64,000 nt of DNA from a virus. Position numbers and translations under genes: made by a program. Where the stretch lies: positions 1-64,000 of the IMG/VR virus record IMGVR_UViG_3300030333_007172; one strand, 5' to 3'. Position 1 is the stretch's first letter, and each line of letters begins with the position of its first letter. Positions 25,039-46,498 of this stretch are shown one piece after another. Under the pieces are notes generated by a model. The model did not search any database, was not told the origin of the DNA, and was given only the letters and a program-made list of their open reading frames with translations.

Positions 25039-25049
25039 TATAATTTCTC

Positions 25050-26051
25050 CTATTGTTTTTCTACTTGGGTCTTTACCCAGTCATAAGTAATTTCCATTCC
25101 TTCTTGCAAAGGCTGTGATACAACCCATCCGACTTTTTCTTCATATAAAGTATTGTCAGAATTGCGACCATTTACGCCAACAGGGCATCGGTGCCCATAC
25201 TTTGCTTCGAATTCTTCGCCCTGAATGTTATAAATTGACAAATCTTTTCCAGAAATATCAATAACCATTTGGGCAAAATCATTCATTGAAATCATTTCTT
25301 CGGAACCAATATTAACTGGTCCAACAAAATCTGAATGCATTAGACGGTAAGTTGCTTCTACGCATTCATCTACATACAAAAATGATCTTGTTTGGGTTCC
25401 TGGTCCCCAAATTTCTACCGAGGATCCATCTTCTGCTTCGGCAACTTTTCTACAGAAAGCCGCAGGGGCCTTTTCGCGACCCCCAGTCCAAGTCCCACAA
25501 GGTCCAAAAATGTTGTGATATCGAGCGACTCTAACTTCTAGTCCCTTATTCCGCATAAATGCAAGGAACACGCGCTCAGAAAAAAGCTTCTCCCAGCCGT
25601 ACTCTGAGTCAGGGTCTGCTGGATATGCAGAGTCCTCAACGCAGTTTGGATTGTCGGGATCTAGTTGGTTGTGTTCTGGGTACATGCATGCAGAGGACGA
25701 GTAAAATACTCTCTTGACATTTTTCTTTACAGCTTCATGCACTACATTAAGGTTAACCAATGCAGAATTGTGCATAATATCTGCGTCGTTCTCGCCTGTA
25801 AACACGAATCCTGCGCCACCCATATCAGCGGCCAATTGATAGATTTCATCCATCTCTTCATCAATTACAGCAGCGACAACATTTGGATCTCGTAAGTCTC
25901 CAAGTACAAAATCATCTGCAAACTCATGCACGGGATGAAATTCGTTCTTCTTTAGGTCAACTCCGCGCACCCAATATCCTTTGGCTTTTAAAAATTTAAC
26001 GAGGTGTCCGCCAATAAAACCACCTGCTCCGCATACTAATGCCTTCTTCAT
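25050..26051 (-). CDS. GDP-mannose 3,5-epimerase-like SDR
   Basis: This 333-residue extended short-chain dehydrogenase matches plant-type GDP-mannose 3,5-epimerase closely. It has the GAGGFIGGH nucleotide-binding loop (8-16), AADMGGAGF (74-82), SSSACMYP with the catalytic Cys at 122, the YxxxK pair Y151/K155, and GREKAPAAFCRK (191-202) bearing the second catalytic Lys. The family converts GDP-D-mannose to GDP-L-galactose/GDP-L-gulose via a 4-keto intermediate. A cytoplasmic enzyme, it probably supplies an activated sugar to the glycosyltransferases upstream. SD AAGGAG is present. A relative such as a GDP-6-deoxy-hexose reductase cannot be fully excluded, but the epimerase motifs are intact. 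Confidence 0.85.
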   Translation of the reverse strand: MKKALVCGAGGFIGGHLVKFLKAKGYWVRGVDLKKNEFHPVHEFADDFVLGDLRDPNVVAAVIDEEMDEIYQLAADMGGAGFVFTGENDADIMHNSALVNLNVVHEAVKKNVKRVFYSSSACMYPEHNQLDPDNPNCVEDSAYPADPDSEYGWEKLFSERVFLAFMRNKGLEVRVARYHNIFGPCGTWTGGREKAPAAFCRKVAEAEDGSSVEIWGPGTQTRSFLYVDECVEATYRLMHSDFVGPVNIGSEEMISMNDFAQMVIDISGKDLSIYNIQGEEFEAKYGHRCPVGVNGRNSDNTLYEEKVGWVVSQPLQEGMEITYDWVKTQVEKQ

Positions 26052-26060
26052 TTTAACTCC

Positions 26061-26834
26061 TTAAATAGTATATCCCAACAATCTTAATTCAGATGCATAC
26101 GTCTCATTAAGTTTGTCAATGTGTTTAGGATTAATCCAATCTTTCCAATTCTTTTTTTTTCCGACATATACATGTCTACCGTGCAAACCGCTGTGGTGAT
26201 CGCCTTGGGAAAACTCTGTAAATGTTAATTGTAATTTAATTGCTGCTTCTTTGCCAAAGTTATTGTTCATATAACTTCTTTGCTCGTGAGTTATTTCTAC
26301 TAAATATATATCTTCAATAATATCATAAATATAATCTAAATTATCGTTAAATTTTTCATATTGCAGACAAAAAACATTCTTTTCTCCATAAAGCTCTTTA
26401 TAAAGCTTAAGATATTGACTTTGGCTCATCTCGCGGCCGAGGTGCTCTAAAAGCCAATCAAAATGTTGTGCCGGCATATATTGATACATATTATCATTAT
26501 CTGGCCATGGAATCCAATAATCTGGCGCTGGTGGAAAATTGTCAACAGCCACTCTCCATCTTGACACGAGAACATCTCTAGGGTCGCGATAAGTTAGAAA
26601 TACTTGTGGAGGAGCAGCAGCATTATTATTGGTTCTAAAATCAACGGGCTCGTGAGTTTTCCATGCTGTGTGGAAGAGGTGGGACAAAATTCTCCAGGCG
26701 AGAGTGGTGCCAGTTCGAGGGGAACCTGAAAGCACTACTTCTTTGTTGATGAGCGCGTCTGGTTTAATGATCGCATGCGCAATATCGTTATATAGAAGAG
26801 TTTCGTACCCGTCAATTGTTTTCTTTTCAATCAC
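26061..26834 (-). CDS. PAPS-dependent sulfotransferase-like protein
   Basis: The 5'-phosphosulfate-binding loop GSPRTGTT occupies residues 37-44 and the 3'-phosphate motif YRDPRDVLVSRW residues 82-93 (key Arg83 and Ser91), as in Golgi- and bacterial-type sulfotransferases. The likely reaction is sulfate transfer from PAPS to a sugar hydroxyl. The start is GTG within the end of the GDPD-like gene (8-base overlap). The neighbouring glycan genes make a carbohydrate acceptor likely. PAPS would come from the host; no sulfate-activation gene is in the window. Confidence 0.8.
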   Translation of the reverse strand: MIEKKTIDGYETLLYNDIAHAIIKPDALINKEVVLSGSPRTGTTLAWRILSHLFHTAWKTHEPVDFRTNNNAAAPPQVFLTYRDPRDVLVSRWRVAVDNFPPAPDYWIPWPDNDNMYQYMPAQHFDWLLEHLGREMSQSQYLKLYKELYGEKNVFCLQYEKFNDNLDYIYDIIEDIYLVEITHEQRSYMNNNFGKEAAIKLQLTFTEFSQGDHHSGLHGRHVYVGKKKNWKDWINPKHIDKLNETYASELRLLGYTI

Positions 26835-27276
26835 GTCTTGTTTCCATATGTTCTTGCCACAATAGGGGATAATCAGTACATATGCCTGCTATGTGTTGTG
26901 GAATGCTCCTTGGAGAACCTAGTTCTACTACAAATGCATTTTCTATAAAAATGTTAGGGTAGCACCAGATGTCTCCGCTGCTTGTTAATGTCATTTTATC
27001 TTTTTCGTGCCAAAACCAATTTAGTTTACTGTTTTTAAACTTGACAATGCTTTCAAAATTTTTACAATGAATCCACATTTTATCATTAAAAAATAATTCA
27101 TCAACTTTATGTTGAGGTGCATCATGTCCTAAAAAATAATCATTATTTATTACCCACACATCTACTTCAACATCTAGATCCATATTGATTGCTTTTTGTA
27201 TTTGTGAAGGCACATTCTCTATTTTTTCATCTGGGCCATGTAACAAGCCACGATGTGCTATAATTTTAAAAGTCAT
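26827..27276 (-). CDS. Short glycerophosphodiester phosphodiesterase-like protein
   Basis: At 149 residues this is about half the usual GDPD length, but it keeps the family's catalytic landmarks: IAHRG at 6-10, an EN pair near 20, EVDVW near 37 and GHDAP near 49, all from the metal-binding mouth of a TIM barrel. GDPD enzymes hydrolyse glycerophosphodiesters. Embedded between two sulfotransferase genes, it may act on a glycan or phosphoglycerol substituent. The short length may mean a trimmed barrel; activity is uncertain. Confidence 0.7.
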   Translation of the reverse strand: MTFKIIAHRGLLHGPDEKIENVPSQIQKAINMDLDVEVDVWVINNDYFLGHDAPQHKVDELFFNDKMWIHCKNFESIVKFKNSKLNWFWHEKDKMTLTSSGDIWCYPNIFIENAFVVELGSPRSIPQHIAGICTDYPLLWQEHMETRRD

Positions 27277-27877
27277 ATCCGAATTCTTTTATATCGAGTC
27301 TATAGAAGTCTGCCACAGCATAGGCCATTTTTTCATTATAATATTGTCTATAATATCTAGAATCTCGACCATGACCCATTGTTTCGTTAATCATTCTTAA
27401 TGAACCTCTTTCTTTGTTAAGAGCCGTGCAGATGTCTGTGTAAGCTTGTTCTAAGTTTTCAAATCTTCCCACATAATCAGTTTTCATTTCGCCGGCGTAA
27501 GATAAAAAATAAACTTGAGGTTTAAAAAATAAATTCTGACTCCACAAAGAATCTTTTAAGTTTAAACACAAATTTTCAAAATTTCCAAACTCGCTAACTA
27601 ATAGTCGGTTTTCACAACGATGATGTCCCGAATATTGATGATTGCGCTTACGTGTAAAATCTCGCCACAGAGAAGTTAATCTATCCCATGGATTTCTTAC
27701 AATAGAGAATTTATAATAATCGATATGTTTTAAATAATCATGAGAAATAAAATGCTCTAAATTGTCATGATAAAGCGCTGGCTCCTCTGAAATCTGAAAT
27801 CCTAAAGCGTTTGTTAGTGCTTGTGAGGCTGTTTTAGGGATTGGGATGTGTATAAATTTTTCTTCATGGTTAATCAT
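27266..27877 (-). CDS. Sulfotransferase family 2-like protein
   Basis: The protein opens with FIHIPIPKTASQA (residues 8-20, PSB loop), has a SIVRNPWDRLTSLW motif (58-71, 3'-phosphate site) and ends with the YYNEKMAYAVADFYRLDI segment typical of carbohydrate sulfotransferases of the Sulfotransfer_2 family (heparan/chondroitin type). The usual IPKTAST loop appears as IPIPKTAS. It overlaps the genes on both sides by about 10 bases, so it is part of one transcript. The acceptor is presumably the glycan made by the cluster. Confidence 0.82.
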   Translation of the reverse strand: MINHEEKFIHIPIPKTASQALTNALGFQISEEPALYHDNLEHFISHDYLKHIDYYKFSIVRNPWDRLTSLWRDFTRKRNHQYSGHHRCENRLLVSEFGNFENLCLNLKDSLWSQNLFFKPQVYFLSYAGEMKTDYVGRFENLEQAYTDICTALNKERGSLRMINETMGHGRDSRYYRQYYNEKMAYAVADFYRLDIKEFGYDF

Positions 27878-28637
27878 TATTCTTTCTCCGATAAAACTCT
27901 TCTTGTGTTATTTGACGAGGGTAATTCCATTTGGCTCCCCATAAATATTTTTCATAATTTTCAATTGTCAATAACTCTACATTGTAAAGTTCTTGCCAAA
28001 AATCTTCTATATTAATACAACCAAATATTTTCATGTCTCGATATGACAAAGTTTTTAAAACAAGAGGCGCCCACGATGGAGGCGGCACTAAATTACTAAG
28101 GTGGTTTCTAGGTAGCTCGTGGTCTTCTAACCAGTTGTTTGCATAGTTTTGAAGCCCTCCATGATTGCAGTCCCAACGTTGCCAGCTTTTAAGCAATACA
28201 TCAAGAGGTCCGTATAGAAATAAATCACCAATAAACATACTCTTTAAAGATGTCATTTCAGTTACAACCATTTTTGTACCCTCTTCCGTTAAGATTTTGT
28301 GCATTTTATCGCAAATATTAGGAACAAGACTCGGGCAGTCTGCGCGTGATTTAAACGCATGGGTAAAGCCTTGTTGCCGGGCATGCAAGTACCCTAAATA
28401 TACAAAATAGGGATGACCAGAACCAAACTGTTCTTCTCGGATTACGTGCTCCCAGTGGACAAAATCTACTTTCTCTATTGTTTTACGATGAAGTGGCAAT
28501 CCGTGTCCTGTTAATATGATATAAGCCTCTGGATTTAAACGTCTAAAAGTGTCTACTGTTTTTTCTACTATATCCAGCTTTTGTTCTTGTCCGTTTCTTA
28601 TCAACACATGAGTTAAAACTATACAGTTATTTTTCAT
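27870..28637 (-). CDS. WavE-like putative glycosyltransferase
   Basis: A 255-residue protein with an FKSRADC motif near residue 95 and a GDLFLYGP segment near 138, the signature of WavE-type LPS core glycosyltransferases (R-x-D then a G-D/S-x-x-x-x-G strand). The N terminus (CIVLTHVLIRNG) resembles a GT-A Rossmann strand. It is one of three genes here with the R-x-D signature. SD AGGAT precedes the ATG. The donor and acceptor are unknown. Confidence 0.65.
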   Translation of the reverse strand: MKNNCIVLTHVLIRNGQEQKLDIVEKTVDTFRRLNPEAYIILTGHGLPLHRKTIEKVDFVHWEHVIREEQFGSGHPYFVYLGYLHARQQGFTHAFKSRADCPSLVPNICDKMHKILTEEGTKMVVTEMTSLKSMFIGDLFLYGPLDVLLKSWQRWDCNHGGLQNYANNWLEDHELPRNHLSNLVPPPSWAPLVLKTLSYRDMKIFGCINIEDFWQELYNVELLTIENYEKYLWGAKWNYPRQITQEEFYRRKNND

Positions 28638-28647
28638 ATTTTTTTTA

Positions 28648-29808
28648 TTATCCTATAGTCTTTTTCATTCGAGTCATGTGGCGGCCACCATCAAAGCTAC
28701 TCTTTTTCCAAATCTTAATCATACTATCTAATTGAGCTTCGGAAACGTATTTTTCAGGAATAGCAAAGAAATTACAGCAATTGTGCCGAATGGCATACTC
28801 TGCCGTATATTCATCAATCACTAAGGCAGATCTAACGCCATCTAAGTGATTAGCTAGAATATTAACGCCCTGTCCTGTGCGACAGAATCCCATGGCAAAA
28901 TCAGAAGTTTTTTGATTCATTGCTGCAACGGCAGCACTTACATATTCATTGTAATCACAATCTTTTTTAACATATGTGCCGAAATCTATATAAGGAACAT
29001 TGTTTTTTTCTAAAAGACTCTTCGCAACTTCTTTCATGCGAAAGCCTGAGTGATCACAGCACAAAGCAATTGGCTTATCGCCAAATCGGGCCGTAACATG
29101 GTTTACAAAAAACTCTAACTCAGGAGGTGTTCCAAGCACATGCATTTTTTCTACTTGTTCAATTCCCACCTGCATGTCATCAGCTATCATAAGGTTATAC
29201 ATTGGGCAGATATAAAACTCCCCTTTTGTTCTGATGTTGCGCGAAATCATTTCCTCTGCATATTGGACAAACATTCTTCCAGTTTTATAATAATAAACCC
29301 CTACCGCAGCATTTTGACTTATAACATCTTTCTCAGCGGTTCTAATAGCTAAATTATTTTCATCTAACTCGACATAACTGTGTGCTGGGCTATTAGCTTT
29401 AAAGGTCAGAATAAACCCATCTAAATCAGAAGGTATTGTAGCTGGATTAAACTGATTTTCAAAATACACATCTGGGGTATAAATTATAAGAGGCAGATCA
29501 TTGTTGATGTGCTTTTTAGCTAATAAACAGGTTGACACAGAGCCGTCAGTTACTCTGTCAATGACAACAATTTTGATGTCATCGCCAAATTTGTTTCTTA
29601 AAATATCATCTATAGAGAAATTATTAATGTGTTCTAGCCTCACAGCAAAAATAATATTACACTCTGTTGTGTCAATCGACTCCATAGACCAATCTATAAT
29701 ATGCTTATCCTTAGACATGATTAGCGGTTTGGGCATTGTGTACCCTTTATCTAAAAATCTTTGCGCTCTACCAGCTATCGGCAGAAGTAAATTATACTTT
29801 TTGTTCAT
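28648..29808 (-). CDS. Sugar nucleotidyltransferase fused to RpiB-type isomerase
   Basis: Residues 1-235 form a sugar-phosphate nucleotidyltransferase domain: LLPIAGRAQRF (8-18), MPKPL (25-29) and a YTPDVYF metal-site strand near 113. Residues 243-386 form an RpiB/LacAB isomerase domain with CDHSG (251-255), CRTGQG (309-314, retaining the catalytic Cys of the canonical CGTGIG) and RHN (341-343). RpiB enzymes interconvert aldose and ketose phosphates. The fusion suggests that isomerisation and activation of one sugar phosphate are coupled. SD AGGAC is present. The substrate may be a pentose or heptose phosphate; this is inference. Confidence 0.82.
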   Translation of the reverse strand: MNKKYNLLLPIAGRAQRFLDKGYTMPKPLIMSKDKHIIDWSMESIDTTECNIIFAVRLEHINNFSIDDILRNKFGDDIKIVVIDRVTDGSVSTCLLAKKHINNDLPLIIYTPDVYFENQFNPATIPSDLDGFILTFKANSPAHSYVELDENNLAIRTAEKDVISQNAAVGVYYYKTGRMFVQYAEEMISRNIRTKGEFYICPMYNLMIADDMQVGIEQVEKMHVLGTPPELEFFVNHVTARFGDKPIALCCDHSGFRMKEVAKSLLEKNNVPYIDFGTYVKKDCDYNEYVSAAVAAMNQKTSDFAMGFCRTGQGVNILANHLDGVRSALVIDEYTAEYAIRHNCCNFFAIPEKYVSEAQLDSMIKIWKKSSFDGGRHMTRMKKTIG

Positions 29809-30505
29809 TTTTTGTCCTATTAATTAATAAATTTGTGGTTTCTACCATTGCGTTTTTTGTGCTATCAATTAAACCGCGAGAATAGTAATTATTTATAGCA
29901 AAAGCAGCATATATATCACCAGCCCCATTAACGTTTAAATTTTTTAAAGGTTTTTGAGATTCTTTGTGAATTATTTTTCCTTTCTCAATGATTTCAAATC
30001 CGGCCGCATCATGCAACACTAACGGCGTTTTTAAAGTTATATTATTGTATAAAGCTTTTCTTTCTCTAGAGTCAAAGATAATTTTAGCAGATTGCATTAC
30101 ATGCGTGTACATTTCTCTTGATAATTCGGTACAAAAATCTATGCTATAGGGTATTTTAATTTTAGATAACTCACTATAACACTCAATGTCGTCGACATAA
30201 CATACATGCAACCATGCTCCTTGATTAATCGCATTGATAGATTGTTCAGACATTATAGAAGGAGATTGATTAAGAACATAAGAAGTTCTTGTGCTAGTTG
30301 TACGGTCACTAACAATATAAGCTTTCTTTTCTCCCGTTGTAATAGGGTTCAATTTCCAATTGTTAAATTTTACTTCAAAAAAATTGGCTACTCCGCCTTG
30401 TTTTTGAACAATATTAGAACAAGAATTAGTTTCCCCTTCTTTATTTGACTCAACAAACATAATTGTATCCGAATAGTCTTTTCCAAACAAAAATAAATCG
30501 TTCAT
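29792..30505 (-). CDS. Short PfkB-family sugar kinase
   Basis: This 237-residue protein ends with the PfkB signature NVNGAGDIYAAF (residues 191-202, catalytic Asp197), with the anion-hole GAGD intact although the usual DT before it is replaced. The N-terminal sugar-binding half is shortened compared with typical 300-residue kinases. It probably phosphorylates a sugar phosphate feeding the downstream nucleotidyltransferase-isomerase, with which it overlaps by 17 bases. The start has only a weak SD and follows the HAD gene with no gap. Confidence 0.75.
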   Translation of the reverse strand: MNDLFLFGKDYSDTIMFVESNKEGETNSCSNIVQKQGGVANFFEVKFNNWKLNPITTGEKKAYIVSDRTTSTRTSYVLNQSPSIMSEQSINAINQGAWLHVCYVDDIECYSELSKIKIPYSIDFCTELSREMYTHVMQSAKIIFDSRERKALYNNITLKTPLVLHDAAGFEIIEKGKIIHKESQKPLKNLNVNGAGDIYAAFAINNYYSRGLIDSTKNAMVETTNLLINRTKNEQKV

Positions 30506-31033
30506 TTAAAATTTTTCTTTTTTGTCTAAGGCTTCAATCTCTGCCATTGTGCAATCTTTTATCTGTTTTCTTTCTAATAAAATATCAACTAACTTGGCAA
30601 TAACATTATTACCGCCATTGCGAGGAATTATATTCTGTATTGGGCAAAAATGTTTTATAATGTCGGGAGAGTCTTGGGGACAAAAAGCGTGTCCAACTAA
30701 TTTCATGATAGATAAATCAAATAAGTCATCACCAATATACAACATTTCACTTTTGTTTACTTTATAAATTCTTTCAAAATCTACAACAAAATCTGCCTTA
30801 TCTTTGCCTCTAGCAGAGTAAAAATCTATATTTCTATTTTCGGCCATAGCTTTATTAACACGCTCATCACCAGAAAGAAAACATACTTGTACACCGGCGC
30901 CGCGAAGTCTTTTAATTGCTGTAAAATCTTTATCGCAATATGTTTTTGCAAATGGAATACCATCTAGTCCGTAATATTTACGACCATCGGTCATAATTCC
31001 ATCAATATCTAAAATAGCAAGCTTAACACTCAC
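30506..31033 (-). CDS. KdsC-like HAD phosphatase
   Basis: A capless HAD phosphatase of the KdsC/CMP-NeuNAc synthetase C-domain type: DIDGIMTDG (residues 8-16) with nucleophile and acid Asp, LSGD near 54, and GDDLFDLSIMK near 101, followed by the CPQDS and GGNNVIAKLVD tail typical of KdsC. The family dephosphorylates 3-deoxy-octulosonate 8-phosphate or similar sugar phosphates. Its start is GTG, with AGGAAAA before it and a four-base overlap with the upstream gene. Between a kinase and two transferases, it probably acts in nucleotide-sugar synthesis. Confidence 0.82.
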   Translation of the reverse strand: MSVKLAILDIDGIMTDGRKYYGLDGIPFAKTYCDKDFTAIKRLRGAGVQVCFLSGDERVNKAMAENRNIDFYSARGKDKADFVVDFERIYKVNKSEMLYIGDDLFDLSIMKLVGHAFCPQDSPDIIKHFCPIQNIIPRNGGNNVIAKLVDILLERKQIKDCTMAEIEALDKKEKF

Positions 31034-31824
31034 TTTTCCTCCAAATTAAATATAGTTTGTTTTTTTGTTTCATAATCTTCCCAATAAGTTGTCTGTAAAT
31101 GTGTTGCATACTGTAACATTTGAAACCTTAGAGACGTTCTGATAGGTTTTAGATTGTGTCTTAAAAATTGTTTAGCCAGGGTAATTTCTCCCCCTTCGTA
31201 TTGCATTCCCGAGCTTTCTATATAGCAATTAGAATACTTGTCCATTGCACAACTGGCACCAAAAGCAAACTGATCTTCTACGTAAGGATATCCACCTTCC
31301 GTTATCCAATTCATTCTACAGGCGTTGTTTCCTTTGTGGTACAAATTAGTTCCCACATAAATGTTATTTTTATCACTACAGACATCTTTTAATTCACTAT
31401 TGTTTATTTTTTGTTGCATTAAAAAATCCATGCGAGAGCGAATAACAACATCATATACAAAATTGTTTTTTTGCTCAAACTCTTTTTTAAGAAGATTGGA
31501 GCGATATATTGAATAATACATAATAGCGGTTGTACGTGGGTGTATATCGTTTTGATATTGTTTACGAAAGTTCCAATCAGAATTAAAATCTTCTAATAAT
31601 AAAGTAATGTTGGAATTTGGAAATATATTAGCAAACATTTTACTCTTATTATCAGAATCATCCATAATAGAAGAAGAAAATCTAGTGTTGTGAGACTCTT
31701 TATTCTCATCCCATGTATGAATAAAAATATCGCAATCTAAATCCTTACATAAATATTCATTGTAAGAAAAGCCAGAATTTTGAAAATCTCTTATTAATCC
31801 CGAGAGACAAAGGGCTACTTTCAT
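31030..31824 (-). CDS. Putative glycosyltransferase with R-x-D motif
   Basis: A 264-residue protein starting with a Rossmann strand VALCLSGLIRDF, then DIFIHTWDEN near residue 33 and VVIRSRMDF near 125. This combination occurs in uncharacterised glycosyltransferase-like proteins of marine phages and capsule loci. The Arg-x-Asp element resembles that of the two WavE-like neighbours, so the three may share a fold. SD GGATGAG precedes the ATG. The specific reaction is unknown. Confidence 0.6.
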   Translation of the reverse strand: MKVALCLSGLIRDFQNSGFSYNEYLCKDLDCDIFIHTWDENKESHNTRFSSSIMDDSDNKSKMFANIFPNSNITLLLEDFNSDWNFRKQYQNDIHPRTTAIMYYSIYRSNLLKKEFEQKNNFVYDVVIRSRMDFLMQQKINNSELKDVCSDKNNIYVGTNLYHKGNNACRMNWITEGGYPYVEDQFAFGASCAMDKYSNCYIESSGMQYEGGEITLAKQFLRHNLKPIRTSLRFQMLQYATHLQTTYWEDYETKKQTIFNLEEK

Positions 31825-32625
31825 TTACTCATCCTCTCCCGCATAACGATCTCCGCCATTATAATATCCATCCCACCAATATTCGCAATTAAATTTTTGC
31901 CACCACATCTTAATTCGAGGTAGTGGCCTAAAAATACTGTTTCGATGCTTTAAATAAAAATCAAGTGCCTCTTGTCGTTTGGGCGCGCCATCGAGCAAAT
32001 ATTCCTTCCAGTTTTCTAAATGATGTTGTGAATCTTGAAAGAATAATGCGAAATAATTTGCTCCAATATAAATTGGATTTCTTAAATGTCCAGTTTTTGT
32101 TGAAAAATCTACAGGCTCCGGCATAAGCGGCGGCTCATATGAGAGCGGCATGTTAAAAAGTTTGAACAAGTCTTCTTTGTATCCAATAAATACATGATCT
32201 TGAGGATGATAAGGATAGTTTATGTTGGTTGCAATAACAGCAATCTTACTACGTTGAGTTGTTCCGTCTAAACATCTTAGTGTATCTTTGTTGTCATGCT
32301 CTTTAAAGTAATTAATCCATGTTGTCAGCCCTTCCGGAGACATGATCTCATCAGAACGAATCTTAAGAACGACTTCATTAGTACATTGTTTCAAGCCGTT
32401 GCGCGAAGAAATTAGATGTAAATTTAAATTTCCGGGACCTTCGTAGTCAGGAAATTTGTTTTTTAACAAAACCACTCTCTCATCTTTTATATTTGCTTCT
32501 GTAACAGACTCACTATCCCATGTTGAAACTATTACTCTATCCACCATGGGATGATTCACATAGGAATGGGCGGCACTCACTGTCGCCGGCCAAATTCCGC
32601 CTTGTATTATAATATCTATTTTCAT
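31825..32625 (-). CDS. WavE-like LPS-type glycosyltransferase
   Basis: Residues 1-40 (IDIIIQGGIWPAT, then VIVSTWDSE) and the LKIRSDEIMSPEG motif near residue 88 match WavE family proteins of lipopolysaccharide core synthesis. The C-terminal region is Trp/Tyr-rich. The gene is followed directly by its sulfotransferase, kinase and isomerase neighbours in one run, with SD AAGGGAG before the ATG. Transfer of a sugar to a growing surface glycan is the likely role; donor unknown. Confidence 0.75.
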   Translation of the reverse strand: MKIDIIIQGGIWPATVSAAHSYVNHPMVDRVIVSTWDSESVTEANIKDERVVLLKNKFPDYEGPGNLNLHLISSRNGLKQCTNEVVLKIRSDEIMSPEGLTTWINYFKEHDNKDTLRCLDGTTQRSKIAVIATNINYPYHPQDHVFIGYKEDLFKLFNMPLSYEPPLMPEPVDFSTKTGHLRNPIYIGANYFALFFQDSQHHLENWKEYLLDGAPKRQEALDFYLKHRNSIFRPLPRIKMWWQKFNCEYWWDGYYNGGDRYAGEDE

Positions 32626-32997
32626 TTAATCTCCCTTCATAATTCGATGGCTGTCTGAATCAAAATGTTCTGTAGAAAATTCAAACAATTCTGAGTCCTC
32701 TAAGGCAACCATCTGATGGCGTAATCCGCGATAAACATGAAAGTTTTCACCAGCATTTAAAACCAGTTGATTGGCTTTTGTGATATCGTCTTCGTCTGAA
32801 TAATATATCATCATTTTGCCAGATTGTAAATAAAACACTTCGTCTTTTAATTTATGAAAATGCCAAGAGCATCGTTTTCCTTGTTTAAAAAACAAAAGCT
32901 TACCACAGTATTCATTACAATTTACAATCCAACGTTCCCAGCCCCAGCCCTTGTCAACATGCTTCATAGGCAGTATGTGTGTCTGATCTTTGTTCAT
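32626..32997 (-). CDS. Cupin protein, sugar-phosphate isomerase-like
   Basis: I place the start at 32997 because GGAGA lies 10 bases before this ATG and one base separates it from the upstream stop, giving 123 residues; the frame itself extends 18 codons further. The single cupin barrel has the metal-ligand motif HFHKLKDEVFYLQSG and a second histidine in GLRHQM, as in the mannose-6-phosphate isomerase C-terminal/cupin_2 group. It may isomerise a hexose phosphate or be a non-catalytic sugar binder. It lies beside a small HAD phosphatase. Confidence 0.75.
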   Translation of the reverse strand: MNKDQTHILPMKHVDKGWGWERWIVNCNEYCGKLLFFKQGKRCSWHFHKLKDEVFYLQSGKMMIYYSDEDDITKANQLVLNAGENFHVYRGLRHQMVALEDSELFEFSTEHFDSDSHRIMKGD

Positions 32998-32998
32998 T

Positions 32999-34467: not shown

Positions 34468-34481
34468 TGTATCGAAAACCT

Positions 34482-35459: not shown

Positions 35460-35502
35460 TTTCTTTCCTTTTTTATCAAACATATTTCGATGAACTGTCA
35501 TT

Positions 35503-36273: not shown

Positions 36274-36275
36274 AA

Positions 36276-37762: not shown

Positions 37763-38442
37763 TAATATTTATCCCTTAAAGATGATTTAAGTCCTTTTAA
37801 ATTTGGATCCCGAACTGCTGATACACTTCCATGTTCAGTAATGGCTTTGGCCCAATAAACTTCAAAATTAAGTCGCTCAAATCTGTTATTGAATTCCCAG
37901 TCAAGAGGCTCTGTAACCCTATAGGAGCACATGCTCTTGTATAGGCGGCTAATTGCTTCTTTTTTATACATTACGGTGCACAAACCATTTGTAGCAGGAT
38001 GAGATTTTTTTCCAAATATATCTCGATTATCTCCTACTCTTAAGGCAGCTTCACCCATAAAAACACAATCAAATTTTATTTTCTGTTCTTCACATAATGC
38101 AAGAATTTTTTTAATGTATGTAACCGGGTCTTCTTTAAAAATTACATCGTCCTCTAAAATAAGATAATACTCTCCTTCCTCTTCTTCTACAATTTTTTTG
38201 AGAATATTTTGATATTTAATACACAAAGATGCTTCTCCGGGTTTTATTTCTCGATTGTGTTTTTTAATAAACGTTGAAGTGTCGATATAATCATCTCTGA
38301 TGGAGTCTGTCACGTCTTCTTGATCAAATTTTTCCATAAATTCATACGGAATATTTTGAAACCATTTCTCCATTTCAACAATCATATGCTTTTTGCGCTC
38401 TTCAAGCTTTGTATAATGTACTATAAAAATTTTAGATATCAT
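37762..38442 (-). CDS. GT25-like LPS glycosyltransferase
   Basis: The start at 38442 overlaps the upstream stop as ATGA, typical of coupled genes; the frame could begin seven codons earlier. At 226 residues it has the GT25 (Glyco_transf_25) pattern: N-terminal IFIVHYTKLEERK, GEASLCIKY, and YLILEDDVIF (LxEDD metal site) around residue 97, then GEAALR and a Tyr/His-containing C terminus. GT25 proteins add galactose or glucose to LOS/LPS. Confidence 0.82.
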   Translation of the reverse strand: MISKIFIVHYTKLEERKKHMIVEMEKWFQNIPYEFMEKFDQEDVTDSIRDDYIDTSTFIKKHNREIKPGEASLCIKYQNILKKIVEEEEGEYYLILEDDVIFKEDPVTYIKKILALCEEQKIKFDCVFMGEAALRVGDNRDIFGKKSHPATNGLCTVMYKKEAISRLYKSMCSYRVTEPLDWEFNNRFERLNFEVYWAKAITEHGSVSAVRDPNLKGLKSSLRDKY

Positions 38443-39131
38443 TCTTTTACACAAAAAATCCATGCAATAACAGGATAATCAAATTCATTAAAACCAGGAT
38501 TAATTAAATCTTGATAAGTAGGCCAACTTAATTCTTGAAACATTTTGACCGTGTATTCTTTATTTCCCCAGCTTCCCAAAGAAAGTATTTTAAAACCAGC
38601 GGCCTCTGCAATACAACCTAATCCAGTAGGTGTAAAGCCGCTATAGTGGTGAAAAGGTGTCATATGAGGAATATTTACAACTGGCACATTACAATAAAAA
38701 ACTCCCCCAGTTCTCAGATGAGCGTAAACATTCTTAAGGCATTGAATAGGATCATATAAGTGTTCTAAAGTTTGATTTAGCATGCAAAAATCATAATCTT
38801 TTTCTTTTAGATTAAGATTGTGCAAATCGTTATTAATAGGATCTGCTTCATAATTAATTATTGTGCGCCCTTGTTTGTTTAAAAACTCAAATTCAGGATC
38901 GGAGTCGCCATTAAAACAAAGTAATTTATTAAAATTTAATTTGTTTGTTCTTAAAAATTCTTCAAATTCTAAAACAGCTATAACTCTTGCAAAGTCTTTT
39001 CCTTCCCATCTCCATTTATTTACATTTTTATGCATTGGCAAAGGGGTATATTTATAAGGATCAATAAGAATGTTTGTTACGTGATCCAGATAAGTTCTTT
39101 CAACATCTTTATTATTCAGATAGTTTTTCAT
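38439..39131 (-). CDS. Class I SAM methyltransferase
   Basis: A 230-residue protein with LLCFNGDSDPEFEFL (beta-1/motif I, degenerate glycine loop), a YDFCMLNQTLEHLYDP segment near residue 120, and LKNVYAHLRTGGVFYCNVP, the motif IV to VI pattern of Methyltransf_11/23 enzymes acting on sugars. It overlaps the exostosin-like gene by 20 bases. It probably methylates a sugar of the glycan. The first glycine loop is not canonical, so substrate or SAM binding may be altered. Confidence 0.75.
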   Translation of the reverse strand: MKNYLNNKDVERTYLDHVTNILIDPYKYTPLPMHKNVNKWRWEGKDFARVIAVLEFEEFLRTNKLNFNKLLCFNGDSDPEFEFLNKQGRTIINYEADPINNDLHNLNLKEKDYDFCMLNQTLEHLYDPIQCLKNVYAHLRTGGVFYCNVPVVNIPHMTPFHHYSGFTPTGLGCIAEAAGFKILSLGSWGNKEYTVKMFQELSWPTYQDLINPGFNEFDYPVIAWIFCVKE

Positions 39132-39915
39132 TTATAAATTGCCGCCACCAACTAATTTTTAACTTATTTAAATTATATTTGGTTTTTGTTACTTTTTTGT
39201 AAAAATCATTTAGTTTATTATAATCTACTTCGCTCCAGTTGTCAACAAAATAAATTGGAAGATCATCAAACTCTTTCATTTGTACAGTTCTTTTTACTAT
39301 AGGAATTGTACGAAGATAGAGAGCTTCCCAAACACGATGACAATCAACACCATTGCCTCGGGGAGATATTACAAACTTATGAGAAGCTAAATCAAAATAA
39401 TATTGCTCCATAGTTTTTCGTCCACTTACAGTTACCCAGTCACAATTTTTAAATTTATTCCATACAAAAGTTCTTTCATTTAATGAAGTTTCTAAATTAA
39501 AATTCATATAAACAAGCTTGTTTTTTTTAACATCATAATGATTTAGTTTATCAATTAAAGTTGCTTTCTGCAGCGCGCCGGGGACTTGAGAAGAAAATAA
39601 ACCATTTTGAGATGCTGGGGAAGTTCTCAATGTCATATTTTCTAACCCTATGGGTATGGGGATAACTTTATCGCTCTTAACACTTTTGTTTTGAGCAAGC
39701 CAATAAGAACATTCGGGGCCTATTGCATAACGTTGGTTGTCGATATGATAATCACTATTATGTGTAACAAAAACATTATGATTAGTTTGAACAAACGCAT
39801 TTAAATAATCAGTTTTGCAAAAAGTAGCACCAGTTTCATCACAAATATCAATAAATCGATTCCCTGTGATATATTCGTTAAAGCTAATTCTGTGATTGAG
39901 AAAATATTCTTTCAT
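39112..39915 (-). CDS. Exostosin-like glycosyltransferase
   Basis: Residues around 177-205 read HKFVISPRGNGVDCHRVWEALYLRTIPIV, compressed here to its landmarks SPRGNG, D-x-HR-x-WEAL and TIPIV, the donor-site region of exostosin-type (GT47-like) transferases. The N-terminal half is typical of the same fold without a clear motif. It overlaps the neighbours on both sides. A near-consensus sigma70 promoter lies inside the gene (39217-39245). The acceptor is unknown. Confidence 0.75.
   Translation of the reverse strand: MKEYFLNHRISFNEYITGNRFIDICDETGATFCKTDYLNAFVQTNHNVFVTHNSDYHIDNQRYAIGPECSYWLAQNKSVKSDKVIPIPIGLENMTLRTSPASQNGLFSSQVPGALQKATLIDKLNHYDVKKNKLVYMNFNLETSLNERTFVWNKFKNCDWVTVSGRKTMEQYYFDLASHKFVISPRGNGVDCHRVWEALYLRTIPIVKRTVQMKEFDDLPIYFVDNWSEVDYNKLNDFYKKVTKTKYNLNKLKISWWRQFINEKLSE
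39217..39245 (-). promoter_or_regulatory. Consensus promoter inside exostosin-like gene, TTGACA-17-TATAAT
   Basis: Perfect -35 at 39240-39245 and -10 at 39217-39222 with a 17-base spacer inside the exostosin-like gene, reading toward the methyltransferase and GT25/GT10 genes. It also encodes VDNWSEVDYN, so it may be coincidental, but both hexamers are exact. Confidence 0.5.
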
Positions 39916-40661
39916 AGCGTAAGTGTATCGTAAATTTTTTCTATGTAAGGTTTAAAATCATTTAATGGTCTTGGGAGGTGAATATCCACCACATTATCAC
40001 TCCACAGTAATTTGAAAAAATCAAAATTAACAATGCCTTCACGATCCAATCGACGACCGCCAATAAGTTCATTGTTTAACAAAATTTTAAGATTTAATTC
40101 TTGTATTCTTGTAAACATAAAAACTTCATCACTAAACCAAAGTTTTTTATCTTGTAAATGAGGTGGCAATCTAAATTGAAACTTATCGGTATTAAAGTCT
40201 TTTTTAATAATTAACTCTAAAAACTCTGGCCACGAAAGCCCTAAAAACAACTTTTCATATAAAGAGCCGTAACCACAATAGTAGCATAGTGGAAACTGTC
40301 CAAACTCTCTTCTTTCAGGATTTAAATGAAAGAAAGAATCCTCAGTGCAATAAGACTCAATACGCTCTTTATTAAAGAAAGAGCGACTAACAGGAAACAT
40401 ATCTATATCTGACACTATGCATATTTCGTTAGAAAATTTTTGTGTGAAATATATTCTTGCTAGTTGCGCTTGCAGGTGTGTTGGATAAGCTGGTATCTTT
40501 TTAACGTAGAGTATATCATTTTCAAACGAATTCGTTTCTTTTGTGTTGCTGATTAAAATCAAACAAGGGTCTATATTTAGTCTTTTTCTCCAGACATCGC
40601 GAGCGTATGGCCAAAAATCATAATAAAACGGGTTTTCATCACAGGATAACAAGACTTTCAT
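39912..40661 (-). CDS. Putative GT-A glycosyltransferase
   Basis: The only recognisable element is ICIVSDIDMFPVS near residue 81, a DxD metal site with hydrophobic strand as in GT-A transferases, plus an early strand VLLSCDENPFYYDFWP. The C terminus has YSDEVFM-like features (WFSDEVFMF near 175). Four-base overlap with both neighbours fits one transcript. No family name can be given securely. Confidence 0.6.
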   Translation of the reverse strand: MKVLLSCDENPFYYDFWPYARDVWRKRLNIDPCLILISNTKETNSFENDILYVKKIPAYPTHLQAQLARIYFTQKFSNEICIVSDIDMFPVSRSFFNKERIESYCTEDSFFHLNPERREFGQFPLCYYCGYGSLYEKLFLGLSWPEFLELIIKKDFNTDKFQFRLPPHLQDKKLWFSDEVFMFTRIQELNLKILLNNELIGGRRLDREGIVNFDFFKLLWSDNVVDIHLPRPLNDFKPYIEKIYDTLTL

Positions 40662-41452
40662 TATACACTTAAATACCTAAAATTATTAAATTTAGACTCT
40701 CTTGGAGATAGCACCATTCTGTTAAAGTCATGCTTATAGCCATGATCGAATTCAATAATTGTTTGCCAGTCGCCGTATTTAGTGTTTTTTTGTACATTAA
40801 ACATCTGGTGTCTATTGTGCTTGTGTATCATAACAGAAAAAACAGATTGATCTTGCCTGTGTTCTCTACAAGGAGAATCGGGTCCATCCGGCTTTATTAC
40901 TGTCGTGTCTGGAAGTGCCACTTCTGGGTCTAGCATATAATCATACATGTCGCTAACAAACTTGATATTATCATTAGTTTTTTTGTATACTTGAAAGCCG
41001 GCCCAATATTGAGGCATAATTTCTGCCCCAAATGAGCCCATTACTTGTAGTGATTTCTTAGTACACCAATATTGATTTGTTAATTTTGGATGAGTATAAA
41101 CTAAAAATAATGATTCATCAACTAAATCGTTTTTTATCGAATCAGTCTTATTAACAAAACAATTTGCTGAATCTGAGTAAATTAGAGAATCAGAATGATT
41201 TAGAAAACAATCTGCTAACGCATATGTCTTATAGAAAAACACTCTCGGTGAGAGTGCATGTTCACAAACTTCTTTTACTGGGTACAGCTTAACTTGTGAA
41301 CCAAATATCTTACTAAATATTTCTAATTGTTCTTTTTCAGTATTAAAATAGTAAACAAACACATCCCCGTCAAACGAATTAACTTTATAACTTTGTATTA
41401 GGTTAACCGCTTGCGGGATGTAGTCTTGACTTATTACTGTGCATAAATCCAA
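40661..41452 (-). CDS. Putative GT-A-like glycosyltransferase
   Basis: This 263-residue protein opens with CTVISQDYIPQAVNLIQSY, a pattern common to GT8-like transferases that act on existing glycans, followed by SLIYSDSANCFV near residue 90, where a DxD-like acidic site would lie, and GPDSPCREHRQDQSVFS near residue 192. Its close neighbour at 39912 has a similar architecture. The enzyme class is inferred, not proven. Confidence 0.55.
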   Translation of the reverse strand: MDLCTVISQDYIPQAVNLIQSYKVNSFDGDVFVYYFNTEKEQLEIFSKIFGSQVKLYPVKEVCEHALSPRVFFYKTYALADCFLNHSDSLIYSDSANCFVNKTDSIKNDLVDESLFLVYTHPKLTNQYWCTKKSLQVMGSFGAEIMPQYWAGFQVYKKTNDNIKFVSDMYDYMLDPEVALPDTTVIKPDGPDSPCREHRQDQSVFSVMIHKHNRHQMFNVQKNTKYGDWQTIIEFDHGYKHDFNRMVLSPRESKFNNFRYLSV

Positions 41453-43447
41453 TTAAAGCGCTCTTTGTTGGGGCTGCTGCTGTTGTTGCTGGTAAATCTG
41501 CATATAATTTTGAAAAATTTCTCTTTCGTGTTCACGCTTCCAAGAATCGTGTTCTGGATTTGTTGACATGCCGGTTGGGTTAAAATAGTAAACTCCTAAT
41601 ACTTCAGAGTGCTTTAAGAACTTTACTCCGCCAAACGCACATCTAAGCCAAAGATCCCAATCGCCAGCTGACTTATAATGCTGATTAAAATACCCATGTG
41701 TATCATGTAATTCTTTGCGCCACATAGGATTGTTGTGTGGAAGATTTTGTCGTAACATAGCTTCCTTAGAAAATTGTTCAAAATGATACTGCTGACAGTT
41801 GGGTGGCACATCTTCCCAACGTACATTTGCTTCGTGAACAATGTAACTGTCATTGTATACTAGTCCCACTTCTGGGTTGGCGTATAACAACTTAGCTTGT
41901 TTCTCGTAAGCGTCTGGAGGGCGCCTATCATCACAATTTACATTGGTGACATATTCACCCGTGGCCATTTTAATTCCCATGTTCCACGTATCATAGATGC
42001 CTGGATCTTCTTCAAGTCTCTTATAGATAATATTGTTAGGATACTTCTCCACATATTTAAGAATAACCTCTTCGTCAAACTCTTCTCCAGGAGGATTTGC
42101 ATTGAGAATAATCCATTCACATTTTTCTTCAAAAATAGTTTGACGTGTAACATCTTCCATAAGTTGTTCGATATATTCATCAGCTTTAAAAACAGAAGTA
42201 ACCAAAGAAATTTTAGGCAGATCTTTAATATCTACAACTACCTCGCCCTGGATTGGTCCGGTCTGTTCTAGTACAGTATCTACAAATTGGTTATACATGT
42301 TTTCTTCAGAAAATCGTTCTGATAATTGCGCTGCATATTCGCATGCTTGTTTTGTTTTTCCTTCAGAAACATCTAAATATGCTTTTCTAATTTGTTTTCT
42401 AGCAGATTCTACATTAGGTAAACACCACTGAGAACCTTGGGCTATAACCCCTTTCCATTCGGCAGCTTTTTCAATTTCTCCTATGGTGTATTCTACTTCA
42501 TAGAAGTGAGCGTGCCCTTGTTCATCATAAAGAAAATCATTTTGTCCAGACCACCCAGGAGCGACCACTGGCAATCCGCTATAAGCGGCTTCAAAGATTG
42601 GAAGACCATAACCTTCACCATGTGTCAATGTAACAAAAGCATTAACAGAAGGGTGAATATACAAAGAGTGCATTTCTTCATCGGTCATATCACCGTGTAG
42701 AAGATAGAGCTTACATGTATGATCTTCAAACTCTTTTAATAAATTTTTAAGATTGTTATATGTCATCTCTCTATCCATAAAACAATTTTTAGCATGATTT
42801 GTTTTAAGAATAAGTCCTACATTTTCATTTTTAAATTCTTGCATAAAAGCTGTAATTACATTTTTAATATTTTTGCGAGGACCCATCTGGGCAACACATA
42901 AAAAATTAAAATCGGTATCAGTTTTTAACTCTATCTCTGGCAATTCTTCTGCGGTATATCTTTTTACTGGGTAGTTGACTACTCGTATGGGTCTTGTTAG
43001 AGATAGTTTCTGAGCAGGGTTGCTTTGATTAGCATAATGTGTTTGCTCAAAAACATTTTTAGAATGTTGTGAAACAACGACCAATGAACTCATAGTATTA
43101 GATTTAACAAGCCATTCTGGTGCTACCCGATCTGTTTCAATGCCGGCCGTATACCCAATATTAATAGGCGCTAGTGATTCCCATTCATTAGGAATAGTTA
43201 CCTGAATAGACACATCAAACTTTCCGCCATTTTGCACATAATGAACAGTTTTGCCAATTGTGCTATCAATCCATCGTCTTTCTTCTGTGTCTTCATAAAT
43301 CCAAGAAGTTTGCCCCCATTGCAATGGCTGGATGAAAATATCAAAAATATCTTGTCTAGAGCGTAGACTCCGTAATGCAAATCTAGCCTGTTCTCCATAT
43401 CCAGAGCGAGTCAAAATTGGACCTTTGAGTAGTATTTTTTTCTTCAT
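41453..43447 (-). CDS. Fused GT4-GT2 glycosyltransferase
   Basis: I use the ATG at 43447 because it overlaps the upstream stop (TAATG) and begins with the strand KKKILLKGPILTRSGYG; the frame extends 17 codons further. Residues 1-390 are a GT4 (group 1) domain with THGEGYGLPIFEAAYSGLPV as donor-site signature. Residues 410-660 are a GT2 domain with ISLVTSVFKADEYI, a GIYDTWNMGIKMATGEYV segment and NCDDRRPP as metal site. The C-terminal tail is Gln-rich. One protein could thus add two sugars in succession. Confidence 0.85.
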   Translation of the reverse strand: MKKKILLKGPILTRSGYGEQARFALRSLRSRQDIFDIFIQPLQWGQTSWIYEDTEERRWIDSTIGKTVHYVQNGGKFDVSIQVTIPNEWESLAPINIGYTAGIETDRVAPEWLVKSNTMSSLVVVSQHSKNVFEQTHYANQSNPAQKLSLTRPIRVVNYPVKRYTAEELPEIELKTDTDFNFLCVAQMGPRKNIKNVITAFMQEFKNENVGLILKTNHAKNCFMDREMTYNNLKNLLKEFEDHTCKLYLLHGDMTDEEMHSLYIHPSVNAFVTLTHGEGYGLPIFEAAYSGLPVVAPGWSGQNDFLYDEQGHAHFYEVEYTIGEIEKAAEWKGVIAQGSQWCLPNVESARKQIRKAYLDVSEGKTKQACEYAAQLSERFSEENMYNQFVDTVLEQTGPIQGEVVVDIKDLPKISLVTSVFKADEYIEQLMEDVTRQTIFEEKCEWIILNANPPGEEFDEEVILKYVEKYPNNIIYKRLEEDPGIYDTWNMGIKMATGEYVTNVNCDDRRPPDAYEKQAKLLYANPEVGLVYNDSYIVHEANVRWEDVPPNCQQYHFEQFSKEAMLRQNLPHNNPMWRKELHDTHGYFNQHYKSAGDWDLWLRCAFGGVKFLKHSEVLGVYYFNPTGMSTNPEHDSWKREHEREIFQNYMQIYQQQQQQPQQRAL

Positions 43448-44733
43448 TATGCCACCTCCCACAAGTGCCAACGTTCGTATCCCGTGCGTGTATCCCACGA
43501 GCCATGTTCTTCAATAAACGTATCTATCATTTTTACCCAATCTTCTCCAAATTTTTCAAAGTTATAATTTTTATCAACGTGTTGTCTACCTTGAATAGAC
43601 ATCTTTTTATAAACTTTGTCACTAACCTTAATGGCCTTTTTCAAAGTTTCTGTAAAGTCTTTCTGTGTAATTCTATCTTCGTAGATATAAGGCACTTGCA
43701 AAGAACCAATAACTGATTTAGCAGCCGGCTCTATTCCAAATCCAAACCAATTTTCTCCATCAGTCACCTGTTCTTGTAGTCCCCCAGTCATGGTTACAAT
43801 AATTGGAGTCCCACAAGCTAACGATTCCTGTGCTGAAAGTCCAAACCCTTCTGCATCTGAAATGCTAACTGTATAATCTGCAACATTATACAGCGTTGCC
43901 AGTGCCTCTGGATTTAGTTTGTTGGTAGAAAGTAAAACTTGTCCATCAGTTAACTTTAGATGCTCTATAATATGCGGCAAATCTTGTCCGTGAGCATCTC
44001 GCGCGTCTGTATGCATTAGCAGCATTGCTTTATCGTGACCAACTTCATCTAAAAATTCTTTAAACCACCAGATTAAAGTTCCACTTTGTTTTCTTCTTGC
44101 ATTTCTGCTGTTAAAGAAGAATAACTTTTTCTTTCCTTTGCTTAGTTGCTTTGCAACCTCAGCTACAGCTGGATAGTTCTTGTCATTCTTTTTATATTTA
44201 TAATAATAATTAGGATCTACTGCATGTGGCAGATAATAAGATGGCACCTCCGGTGCTACTTCTTCTAATATTTTTTTAGTTACCTTTGAGATACACACCA
44301 CTTCATCTGTAGAGCTATAAAACCTAGAGTTAAAGTGAGGTGCAGGAAAATTGTCCCATACGTGATAATATACTAACGGTACCTGGGCTCTGATTTCGTT
44401 TTCAATTTCCCAAAGCCAGCCATAAAATCTTGGATCTGTCATAAACCATACCATGTCTGGTCTCTCACGAGCCATAATAGAGCGTATTGTTTCTTGATTG
44501 CCGTACCCATCAACTGGATATATAAGCCATCTATCGCCCCACTCTTCTAATCTCTGTGGCTCGTAAGCTTTGTGTTTGACAGCACCACCTAGACTAATAA
44601 CATCATATCTGTCACTTCGCAGTAAAGCCTCAATAACATATTTTGTTTGTGTTCCTACACCCGATGGAGATAGGGGGTGATCAGACAAAGTTAAAATCTT
44701 CTTTCTTTTCATTTGTGTGTTTCCTACGGACAA
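43447..44733 (-). CDS. GT4 glycosyltransferase
   Basis: The 428-residue protein has the GT-B fold landmarks of group 1 transferases: ILTLSDHPLSPSGVGTQTKY at the N terminus, FFNSRNARRKQ in the hinge region and SDAEGFGLSAQESLACGTPII near residue 285 (EGFGL...E catalytic element). An ATG seven codons in (44712) is an equally good start; the first overlaps the nuclease gene by ten bases. It is the first gene of the glycan run. Confidence 0.88.
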   Translation of the reverse strand: MSVGNTQMKRKKILTLSDHPLSPSGVGTQTKYVIEALLRSDRYDVISLGGAVKHKAYEPQRLEEWGDRWLIYPVDGYGNQETIRSIMARERPDMVWFMTDPRFYGWLWEIENEIRAQVPLVYYHVWDNFPAPHFNSRFYSSTDEVVCISKVTKKILEEVAPEVPSYYLPHAVDPNYYYKYKKNDKNYPAVAEVAKQLSKGKKKLFFFNSRNARRKQSGTLIWWFKEFLDEVGHDKAMLLMHTDARDAHGQDLPHIIEHLKLTDGQVLLSTNKLNPEALATLYNVADYTVSISDAEGFGLSAQESLACGTPIIVTMTGGLQEQVTDGENWFGFGIEPAAKSVIGSLQVPYIYEDRITQKDFTETLKKAIKVSDKVYKKMSIQGRQHVDKNYNFEKFGEDWVKMIDTFIEEHGSWDTRTGYERWHLWEVA

Positions 44734-45500: not shown

Positions 45501-45521
45501 GTGCACTCCCTAGTATTTACT

Positions 45522-46482: not shown

Positions 46483-46498
46483 TTTTAACTCCTAAAAT

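Follow-up and report, generated by a model that had tools for sequence, protein, structure and literature searches.

The window examined here, bases 1-64000, belongs to a virus record of 98,058 bases (IMGVR_UViG_3300030333_007172, graded as a possible fragment) and contains, at 25050-44733 on the minus strand, a run of 25 tightly packed open reading frames (ORFs). We read this run as an island for glycan biosynthesis in a lineage of T4-type marine phages, the core of the island being a set of genes that would make an unusual activated sugar, with the virion slightly favored as the acceptor; taken in all its parts, we consider this reading an evenly balanced call. The island itself is real, phage-borne, conserved, and probably functional. 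Sixteen of its 25 junctions overlap, the junction with a PDDEXK nuclease gene counted in, and the widest gap is 14 nt. A first-pass annotation had described this single minus-strand run with overlaps as about 22 consecutive genes; the run and its overlaps were confirmed, whereas the count proved to be 25.

The most conserved part of the island is a module consisting of a HAD phosphatase, a PfkB kinase, and a sugar nucleotidyltransferase (NTase) fused to an RpiB-type isomerase, usually accompanied by a miniature GDPD-like protein. The fusion, used as a query, retrieved 39 IMG/VR loci; together with the cyanophages Bellamy and SynMITS9220M01 and a contig from a reference genome (L047), these gave 42 loci, all chosen by the presence of the fusion. 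Collapsing fusions at least 95% identical left 29 loci, whose neighboring genes were identified by blastp (E 1e-4, 55% coverage). Upstream genes were counted in the 27 loci with more than 1.8 kb of upstream sequence, leaving out L007 and L037 for their short upstream regions (L037 has both genes). Results showed that a PfkB gene lay upstream of the fusion in all 27 loci and that a HAD gene lay within 4 kb of it in 26 of the 27. A GDPD gene was found within 9 kb downstream of the fusion in 26 of 29 loci, a sulfotransferase gene within the same distance in 12, and a transketolase pair adjoining the fusion in nine. In a scan of 19 phage records, Transketolase_N was present in 12 (the halves scanned were Transketolase_N and Transket_pyr) and APS kinase, the enzyme producing the sulfate donor, in five, near the GDPD gene within the island. 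One relative (G009; 10038-10982 of L063) encodes, within its glycan island, a 315-aa protein in which an APS kinase (226.7 bits) is followed by a HAD-like stretch. Several loci without a recognized short kinase have, in its slot, an ORF that resembles PfkB and bears a GAGD-type motif; the one such ORF scanned, which comes from the relative G012, proved to be a PfkB of full length (E 6e-16). Since kinase activity seems to be retained while the gene is swapped, this argues for a pathway.

In the window, the fusion (28648-29808) joins an NTase (residues ~1-240) to an RpiB-type isomerase (residues 247-383; LacAB_rpiB, 118.7 bits). The RpiB domain passes the subfamily model TIGR00689 (103.8 bits, cut-off 88.3), and the NTase part matches rmlA_long of NCBIfam with 31 bits. 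Among single-enzyme models, the RpiB domain ranked rpiB first (94.6 bits), followed by actinobacterial ribose-5-phosphate isomerase (67), LacA (57), LacB (53), and erythrulose-4-phosphate isomerase (42); since rpiB is the best of these, a pentose would be our first guess at the sugar. The adjacent short kinase (29792-30505) had no Pfam or NCBIfam match; however, its profile matched PfkB kinases (best E 1.2e-4), and its predicted structure (pLDDT 95) matched those of ketohexokinase and ribokinase in a Foldseek search (best E 1.4e-12). The PfkB signatures GG..N and GAGD are invariant across 14 short-kinase sequences, and by predicted fold and motif this protein is a PfkB-type kinase. The HAD phosphatase (30506-31033; Hydrolase, 27.8 bits, cut-off 26.4) is KdsC-like, judged from an alignment and a TIGR01670 match below cut-off. 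The GDPD-like protein (26827-27276, 149 aa) matched no Pfam family at E 0.01, and Foldseek alone returned nothing for its model at E 0.001, the best match being a GDPD at 2.7e-3. Even so, a profile built from 20 relatives matched a GDPD in the PDB (E 0.0018), the predicted fold aligned with GDPDs over 143 of 149 residues (Z 11.3, rmsd 3.0), and H8, R9, E37, D39, and H51, the HR, ExD, and H of the GDPD motif, are invariant in the 20 sequences. It is thus, by predicted barrel and motif, a GDPD-like protein, as the first-pass annotation had it, although its best matches are ~70-100 residues longer.

To learn whether the fusion occurs outside phages, 84,980 species genomes were scanned with two short patterns, which diverged fusions can escape. 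The scan gave 134 stretches and a single relative, L047 (PACT01000001.1), which is a contig of 16 kb from a Crocinitomicaceae metagenome-assembled genome. This contig shares 76-92% identity with cyanophage SynMITS9220M01 in its HAD, kinase, and fusion, and is probably of phage origin, having been binned with a reference genome. A full-length search, confined to Bacteroidota (395 genomes, E 1e-25, at most four candidates scored per genome), yielded eight genomes, i.e., one with the fusion (the L047 genome), three with the NTase half alone, and four with the RpiB half alone. By these scans, the fusion appears to occur almost only in phages. Two Bacteroidota polysaccharide loci (G309 and G096) encode a related NTase (30-36% identity) that lies next to or not far from GDPD-like and HAD genes (labels assigned by eye); this NTase lacks the RpiB fusion, the HAD is apparently of another type, and the module's PfkB queries gave no match in either stretch. 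Given this company of a GDPD-like gene, a HAD gene, and an unfused NTase, loci of this kind may be the source of part of the module.

T4-type phage genes occupy both flanks of the island. On one side are a gp55-like late sigma factor (23553-24263, minus strand; phrog_234, E 3.5e-6), a baseplate wedge protein, and very long ORFs, the wedge and sigma genes being identified by PHROG matches. On the other are a PDDEXK nuclease, a weakly metallopeptidase-like ORF (peptidase matches below cut-off), a small ORF, and PhoH (together 44724-47877, minus strand; Pfam). The ORF run extends into the PDDEXK gene, which overlaps the last island gene (43447-44733) by 10 nt, and continues towards the sigma gene via a small ORF at ~24833-25040, read by eye. 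Given the baseplate-wedge and gp55-like matches, the T4-like label of the first-pass annotation is fair. A megablast of 22000-46900 against 50,697 phage records gave zero matches. In six uncultured relatives (the 40-kb stretches G001, G002, G007, G008, G009, and G012, of which G002 and G012 are close and G007, G008, and G009 are alike), a comparable island has the same address, with PhoH/PDDEXK on one side and the gp55-like sigma gene on the other. Their shared order is PhoH, the peptidase-like ORF, PDDEXK, GT4, GT4-GT2, and variable genes, and then HAD, PfkB, NTase-RpiB, transketolase halves, sulfotransferase, glycosyltransferase, GDPD, SDR, and sigma. The window retains both poles and the module, while its middle (GT25, GT10, methyltransferase, HldE-like, and GDP-mannose 4,6-dehydratase [GMD]-like genes) and its GDP-mannose 3',5'-epimerase (GME) end occupy places that in G012 contain UDP-GlcNAc 2-epimerase, GT-D-like, GNAT, DegT, and transketolase genes. 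The search for this gene order in other phages, proposed earlier, thus showed that both the address and the core order recur in phage contigs. Selection was estimated from two pairs of relatives, G012/G002 and G009/G008, in which island genes showed ratios of nonsynonymous to synonymous substitution (dN/dS) of 0 to 0.29; in the latter pair many dS values exceed 1, so that its ratios are approximate, and for one gene no ratio could be obtained. The fusion had dN/dS of 0.018 and 0.017 in the two pairs, comparable to PhoH (0.014 and 0.029), and is therefore under purifying selection in these relatives; the test covered the genes of these relatives alone.

Glycan islands as a class are known from T4-like cyanophages, in which glycosyltransferase and nucleotide-sugar genes are likewise contiguous in a myovirus and flanked by phage core genes. 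A report on S-SCSM1 lists 13 cell-wall genes, including GME and GMD, and names P-SSM2 and S-SSM7 as earlier cases (PMC9602691). The window's GME is 56-59% identical to those of S-SSM7, S-SCSM1, Bellamy, and SynMITS9220M01. Moreover, Bellamy and SynMITS9220M01 have the NTase-RpiB fusion (51-52%), the HAD, a diverged PfkB, the cupin (~70%), and GDPD, within runs of 29 and 26 consecutive annotated coding sequences, respectively, from the epimerase to the last glycosyltransferase. Many of these are annotated "hypothetical", and Bellamy's module genes are labeled merely phosphatase or hypothetical protein. Considering the 13-gene cyanophage and Bellamy's run of 29, the earlier claim that the window holds far more sugar genes than is typical was overstated. 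What distinguishes the window from the cyanophage islands is its sulfotransferases and HldE-like pair; many relatives also have a split transketolase, and an APS kinase is present in some. No description of the fusion or module was found in titles and abstract openings of the searched literature, a scope that excludes supplements and subscription journals. The earlier suggestion of an undescribed system is therefore overstated for the island as a whole, whose class is known, yet apparently applies to a narrower unit that it had not named, the HAD / PfkB / NTase-RpiB (/ split transketolase) / GDPD module.

The module resembles the activation of heptose (GmhA-HldE-GmhB) and of the lincosamide octose, in which an isomerase, a C1-kinase, a phosphatase, and a nucleotidyltransferase act in that order, and in which isomerase, PfkB-type kinase, HAD phosphatase, and NTase are likewise encoded in one locus. 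It differs in that its isomerase is of the RpiB rather than the SIS type and is fused to an RmlA-like NTase, and in that its HAD is KdsC-like, not GmhB-like; the SIS family (GmhA type) was not among the Pfam matches of the 25 ORFs. For the lincosamide route, octulose 8-phosphate and GDP-octose are described as intermediates. By analogy, the RpiB domain of the phage fusion would turn a ketose phosphate into an aldose phosphate, which the PfkB kinase would phosphorylate at C1, the HAD phosphatase would remove the distal phosphate, and the fused NTase would form a rare nucleoside diphosphate (NDP)-aldose. In some relatives, the split transketolase adjoining the fusion might supply or lengthen the ketose phosphate, while in the window's phage and the two cyanophages host ketose phosphates may serve. 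The window's GME could add GDP-L-galactose or GDP-L-gulose, its HldE-like and GMD-like enzymes further sugars, and soluble glycosyltransferases would then build a glycan that the sulfotransferases would sulfate. Domains, gene order, and phage location are observations, whereas the order of reactions, the sugar, and sulfation are inferred; the window's sulfotransferases, along with APS kinase in some relatives' islands, point to sulfation. The earlier proposal of a methylated, sulfated glycan thus holds as to a phage glycan island with sulfotransferases, while "methylated" rests on one methyltransferase.

The acceptor is the least certain element. A hydropathy scan called no membrane span in the window's 25 island ORFs and, in the islands of the six relatives, one single-span protein, an SDR of G007. 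The absence of a predicted membrane protein from the window's island mildly favors virion proteins over the host surface, and since nothing in the island evidently flips or exports a lipid-linked glycan, a cytoplasmic acceptor, e.g., fiber proteins, would fit. A more specific version, in which at least two marine T4-type lineages possess a phage-specific pathway (a ketose source, e.g., a split transketolase, with the fusion, PfkB, KdsC-like HAD, and miniature GDPD) to an NDP-aldose not known from their hosts and place a sulfated, non-host glycan on virion fibers as a camouflage or adhesion-tuning coat, we put forward tentatively, as clearly less likely than not to hold in full. Literature searches for precedents of virion glycosylation gave nothing usable. 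The strongest competitor, possible though clearly less probable than our overall reading, retains the same module chemistry and has the phage's sugars placed on host lipopolysaccharide (LPS), capsule, or S-layer via host flippases and polymerases, so as to block superinfection or grazing. It is the published reading of cyanophage LPS genes, and in both Bacteroidota loci the unfused NTase adjoins GDPD-like and HAD genes, with ABC-exporter-like genes close by in one of the two (by eye). With no span in the window's island and one in those of the relatives, however, no flippase, polymerase, or Gtr-type protein of the phage is apparent. Gtr-type serotype conversion, which uses multi-span membrane proteins, likewise finds no counterpart among the window's 25 ORFs.

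The remaining explanations are far less probable. In DNA hypermodification, the NDP-pentose would be placed on modified bases, as proposed for arabinosyl-hydroxymethylcytosine in RB69. A phage NTase-like protein is described as linked with a sugar isomerase in RB69/Thanatos, and a related phage is reported to use a pentose pyrophosphorylase. That isomerase is of the SIS type, whereas the window's is RpiB, and other glycan genes fill the window's island; sulfotransferases and many glycosyltransferase types fit DNA modification poorly. The thymidylate-synthase family, which includes dCMP hydroxymethylase, was represented in one of 19 records (18 had no homologue), but not in the window's own record, a fragment, nor in either of the two complete carrier cyanophages. 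Although most of these records are fragments and the search covered this one base-modification chemistry, the count makes DNA modification unlikely. We give an equally low probability to central metabolism, by which RpiB, the kinases, and transketolase would feed pentose-phosphate flow and nucleotide supply. Cyanophages do carry pentose-phosphate genes, and 6-phosphogluconate and glucose-6-phosphate dehydrogenase genes lie near the module in SynMITS9220M01; against this, RpiB is fused to a sugar NTase in 42 of 42 loci (which were selected by the fusion) and is sited among glycosyltransferases. Finally, mis-assembly might have fused a host polysaccharide locus with a phage contig, for which the G+C content of the island, 35.1% versus 36.9% in the remainder of the window (minimum 30.6% at 38-40 kb), offers slight encouragement. 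This explanation, the bacterial capsule locus with an assembly break that the first-pass annotation had envisaged, was rejected and has a negligible probability, in view of the gene overlap at the PDDEXK border, the phage genes on either side, and the recurrence of address and core order in six relatives and other phage contigs.

A number of observations weigh against our reading that the island is a T4-type phage's glycan factory built around a dedicated sugar-activation module. The fusion's RpiB domain misses the rpiB equivalog TIGR01120 (94.6 bits, cut-off 138.65), the KdsC-like HAD misses TIGR01670 (72.2 bits, cut-off 106.95), and the proposed route assigns no role to the GDPD-like protein of the module. 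The linkage has exceptions: in L021 no HAD adjoins the kinase, extra genes interrupt the module in L009, L011, L012, L029, and further loci, L031 is rearranged, and L017, L027, and L029 have no downstream GDPD (L027 carries one upstream). Neither transketolase nor APS kinase was found in the window's record, a fragment, or in Bellamy and SynMITS9220M01. The membrane scan was a plain hydropathy window rather than a trained predictor, and a soluble island is also compatible with the use of host flippases and export machinery. As to the phage, Gp23-type capsid genes were found in only three of the 17 records searched, all three of them relatives, and not in the window's own 98-kb record. The capsid of G012 was nearest not to marine cyanophages but to an uncultured phage and to Flavobacterium phage immuto and Microcystis phage Mel-JY01, and Rhodothermus RM378 ranked lower; all were below 60% identity and none spanned 80% of the capsid. 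From such comparisons, the window's lineage probably differs from T4-like cyanophages. A single transcript for the whole run is plausible from the gene packing, yet late-promoter-like TATAAATA sites were not enriched in the window (10 found versus 8.9 expected), the ATAAATA core occurred at chance level (32 versus 33.7), and sigma-70-like sites at 25000-44900 (88 versus 78.7) were judged uninformative, as were terminator-like sites in the same interval (15 versus 10.1, sd 3.2).

Phage glycan islands are commonly filed as "LPS genes", with product and acceptor undemonstrated, and the module offers a small, testable handle, i.e., three soluble proteins with four predicted activities and a product readable by mass spectrometry. 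Since two cultured cyanophages, Bellamy and SynMITS9220M01, carry a related module, the glycans of their virions and of infected cells are open to direct examination. An ocean-wide survey excluded metabolic genes on contigs carrying such islands, so the scale of these islands may be under-reported. A phage-only sugar, if true, would be a marker for infected cells.

The 25 ORFs include six of glycosyltransferase type and a pair each of sulfotransferases, nucleotide-sugar SDRs, PfkB-type kinases, and HADs. A methyltransferase, the NTase-RpiB fusion, an HldE-II-like nucleotidyltransferase, a cupin, and the GDPD-like protein occur once each, and six ORFs are weakly or not assigned. Genes were called by bit score against Pfam's curated cut-offs, with NCBIfam (TIGR) models and PHROGs as extras. 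Six glycosyltransferase types, both sulfotransferases, both SDRs, RpiB, one PfkB, CTP_transf_like, one methyltransferase, and one HAD exceed their cut-offs, and the cupin barely does. The many different glycosyltransferases, the two sulfotransferases, and the nucleotide-sugar enzymes reported earlier were thereby upheld, whereas of several methyltransferases just one is supported.

At the sigma-side end of the island, the GME-like SDR (25050-26051) has plant GMEs as its best PDB matches (2c59, E 3e-93), aligning over residues 4-333, with the next family at E 3.5e-23; among the best 40 of 146 phage records, 37 exceed 50% identity. The sulfotransferases (26061-26834, Sulfotransfer_1, 40.5 bits; 27266-27877, Sulfotransfer_2, 51.8 bits; cut-off 22 for both) flank the GDPD-like gene. 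Between these and the fusion is a possible glycosyltransferase (27870-28637), weakly WavE-like (E 0.049, below cut-off), whose relatives adjoin the fusion. Beyond the module's HAD are a DUF7796-like possible glycosyltransferase (31030-31824; 22.6 bits, cut-off 27), a WavE-type glycosyltransferase-like protein (31825-32625; 39.5 bits, cut-off 27), and the cupin (32626-33051; Cupin_2, 27.3 bits, cut-off 27.2; phrog_7851), ~70% identical in two cyanophages. A small HAD (32999-33349) resembles the capsule phosphatases EcbF/BcbF (TIGR01689, 33.8 bits, cut-off 162); it also matches phrog_1238 (E 3.4e-28), whose label "phosphoheptose isomerase" we take to be misleading because the Pfam and NCBIfam matches are HAD-type. 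The HldE-like pair consists of a PfkB kinase resembling domain I (33312-34115; PfkB, 68 bits) and a cytidylyltransferase-like protein resembling domain II (34066-34467; 64.7 bits), neither of which reaches its HldE equivalog (TIGR02198, 158 bits, cut-off 345; TIGR02199, 103 bits, cut-off 181.5). The GMD-like SDR (34482-35501) scored 217 bits with GDP_Man_Dehyd and 123 with TIGR01472 (cut-off 415). The middle of the island contains a GT10 fucosyltransferase-like protein (36881-37762; 60 bits, cut-off 23.9), a GT25 (37762-38463; 37.8 bits, cut-off 24), the S-adenosylmethionine-dependent methyltransferase (38439-39131; Methyltransf_23, 36.5 bits, cut-off 27), and an RXYLT1_C/exostosin GT47-like protein (39112-39915; RXYLT1_C, 32 bits, cut-off 27). 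Four unassigned ORFs (35503-36273, 36276-36881, 39912-40661, and 40661-41452) match no Pfam family even at E 1, the second having no NCBIfam match either, and those at 27870 and 31030 match Pfam solely below cut-off. The conserved pole at the PDDEXK end is formed by a two-domain GT4+GT2 glycosyltransferase (41453-43498; Pfam), present at the same place with 40-53% identity in the six relatives, and a GT4 (43447-44733; Glycos_transf_1, 53.9 bits), 56-64% identical in them.

Elsewhere in the record, the ORF beside PhoH (47923-48765, minus strand) looks by eye like a third sulfotransferase, with no Pfam support. The phage also carries Thr and Gly tRNAs at 48757-49083 and a full-length tmRNA gene (55532-55922, minus strand; Rfam tmRNA, 126.7 bits) with the tag ANNNNHFEAAALAA (ARAGORN). 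A 663-aa protein (57988-59979, minus strand) contains a stretch matching a nicotinamide-nucleotide adenylyltransferase PHROG (E 1.7e-5). Just beyond the window, at 64067-66898 of the record (L002 67-2898, minus strand), four consecutive genes encode proteins with a common N-terminal tag of the pattern M-K-x-L-x-E-N-W-R-K-Y-L-x-E; weak matches that miss the Pfam cut-offs were obtained for two of them, to a protein kinase in one case and to an alpha/beta-hydrolase in the other. The tag resembles the sequences that direct packaged internal proteins of T4 to the capsid, and the four proteins may be packaged and injected.

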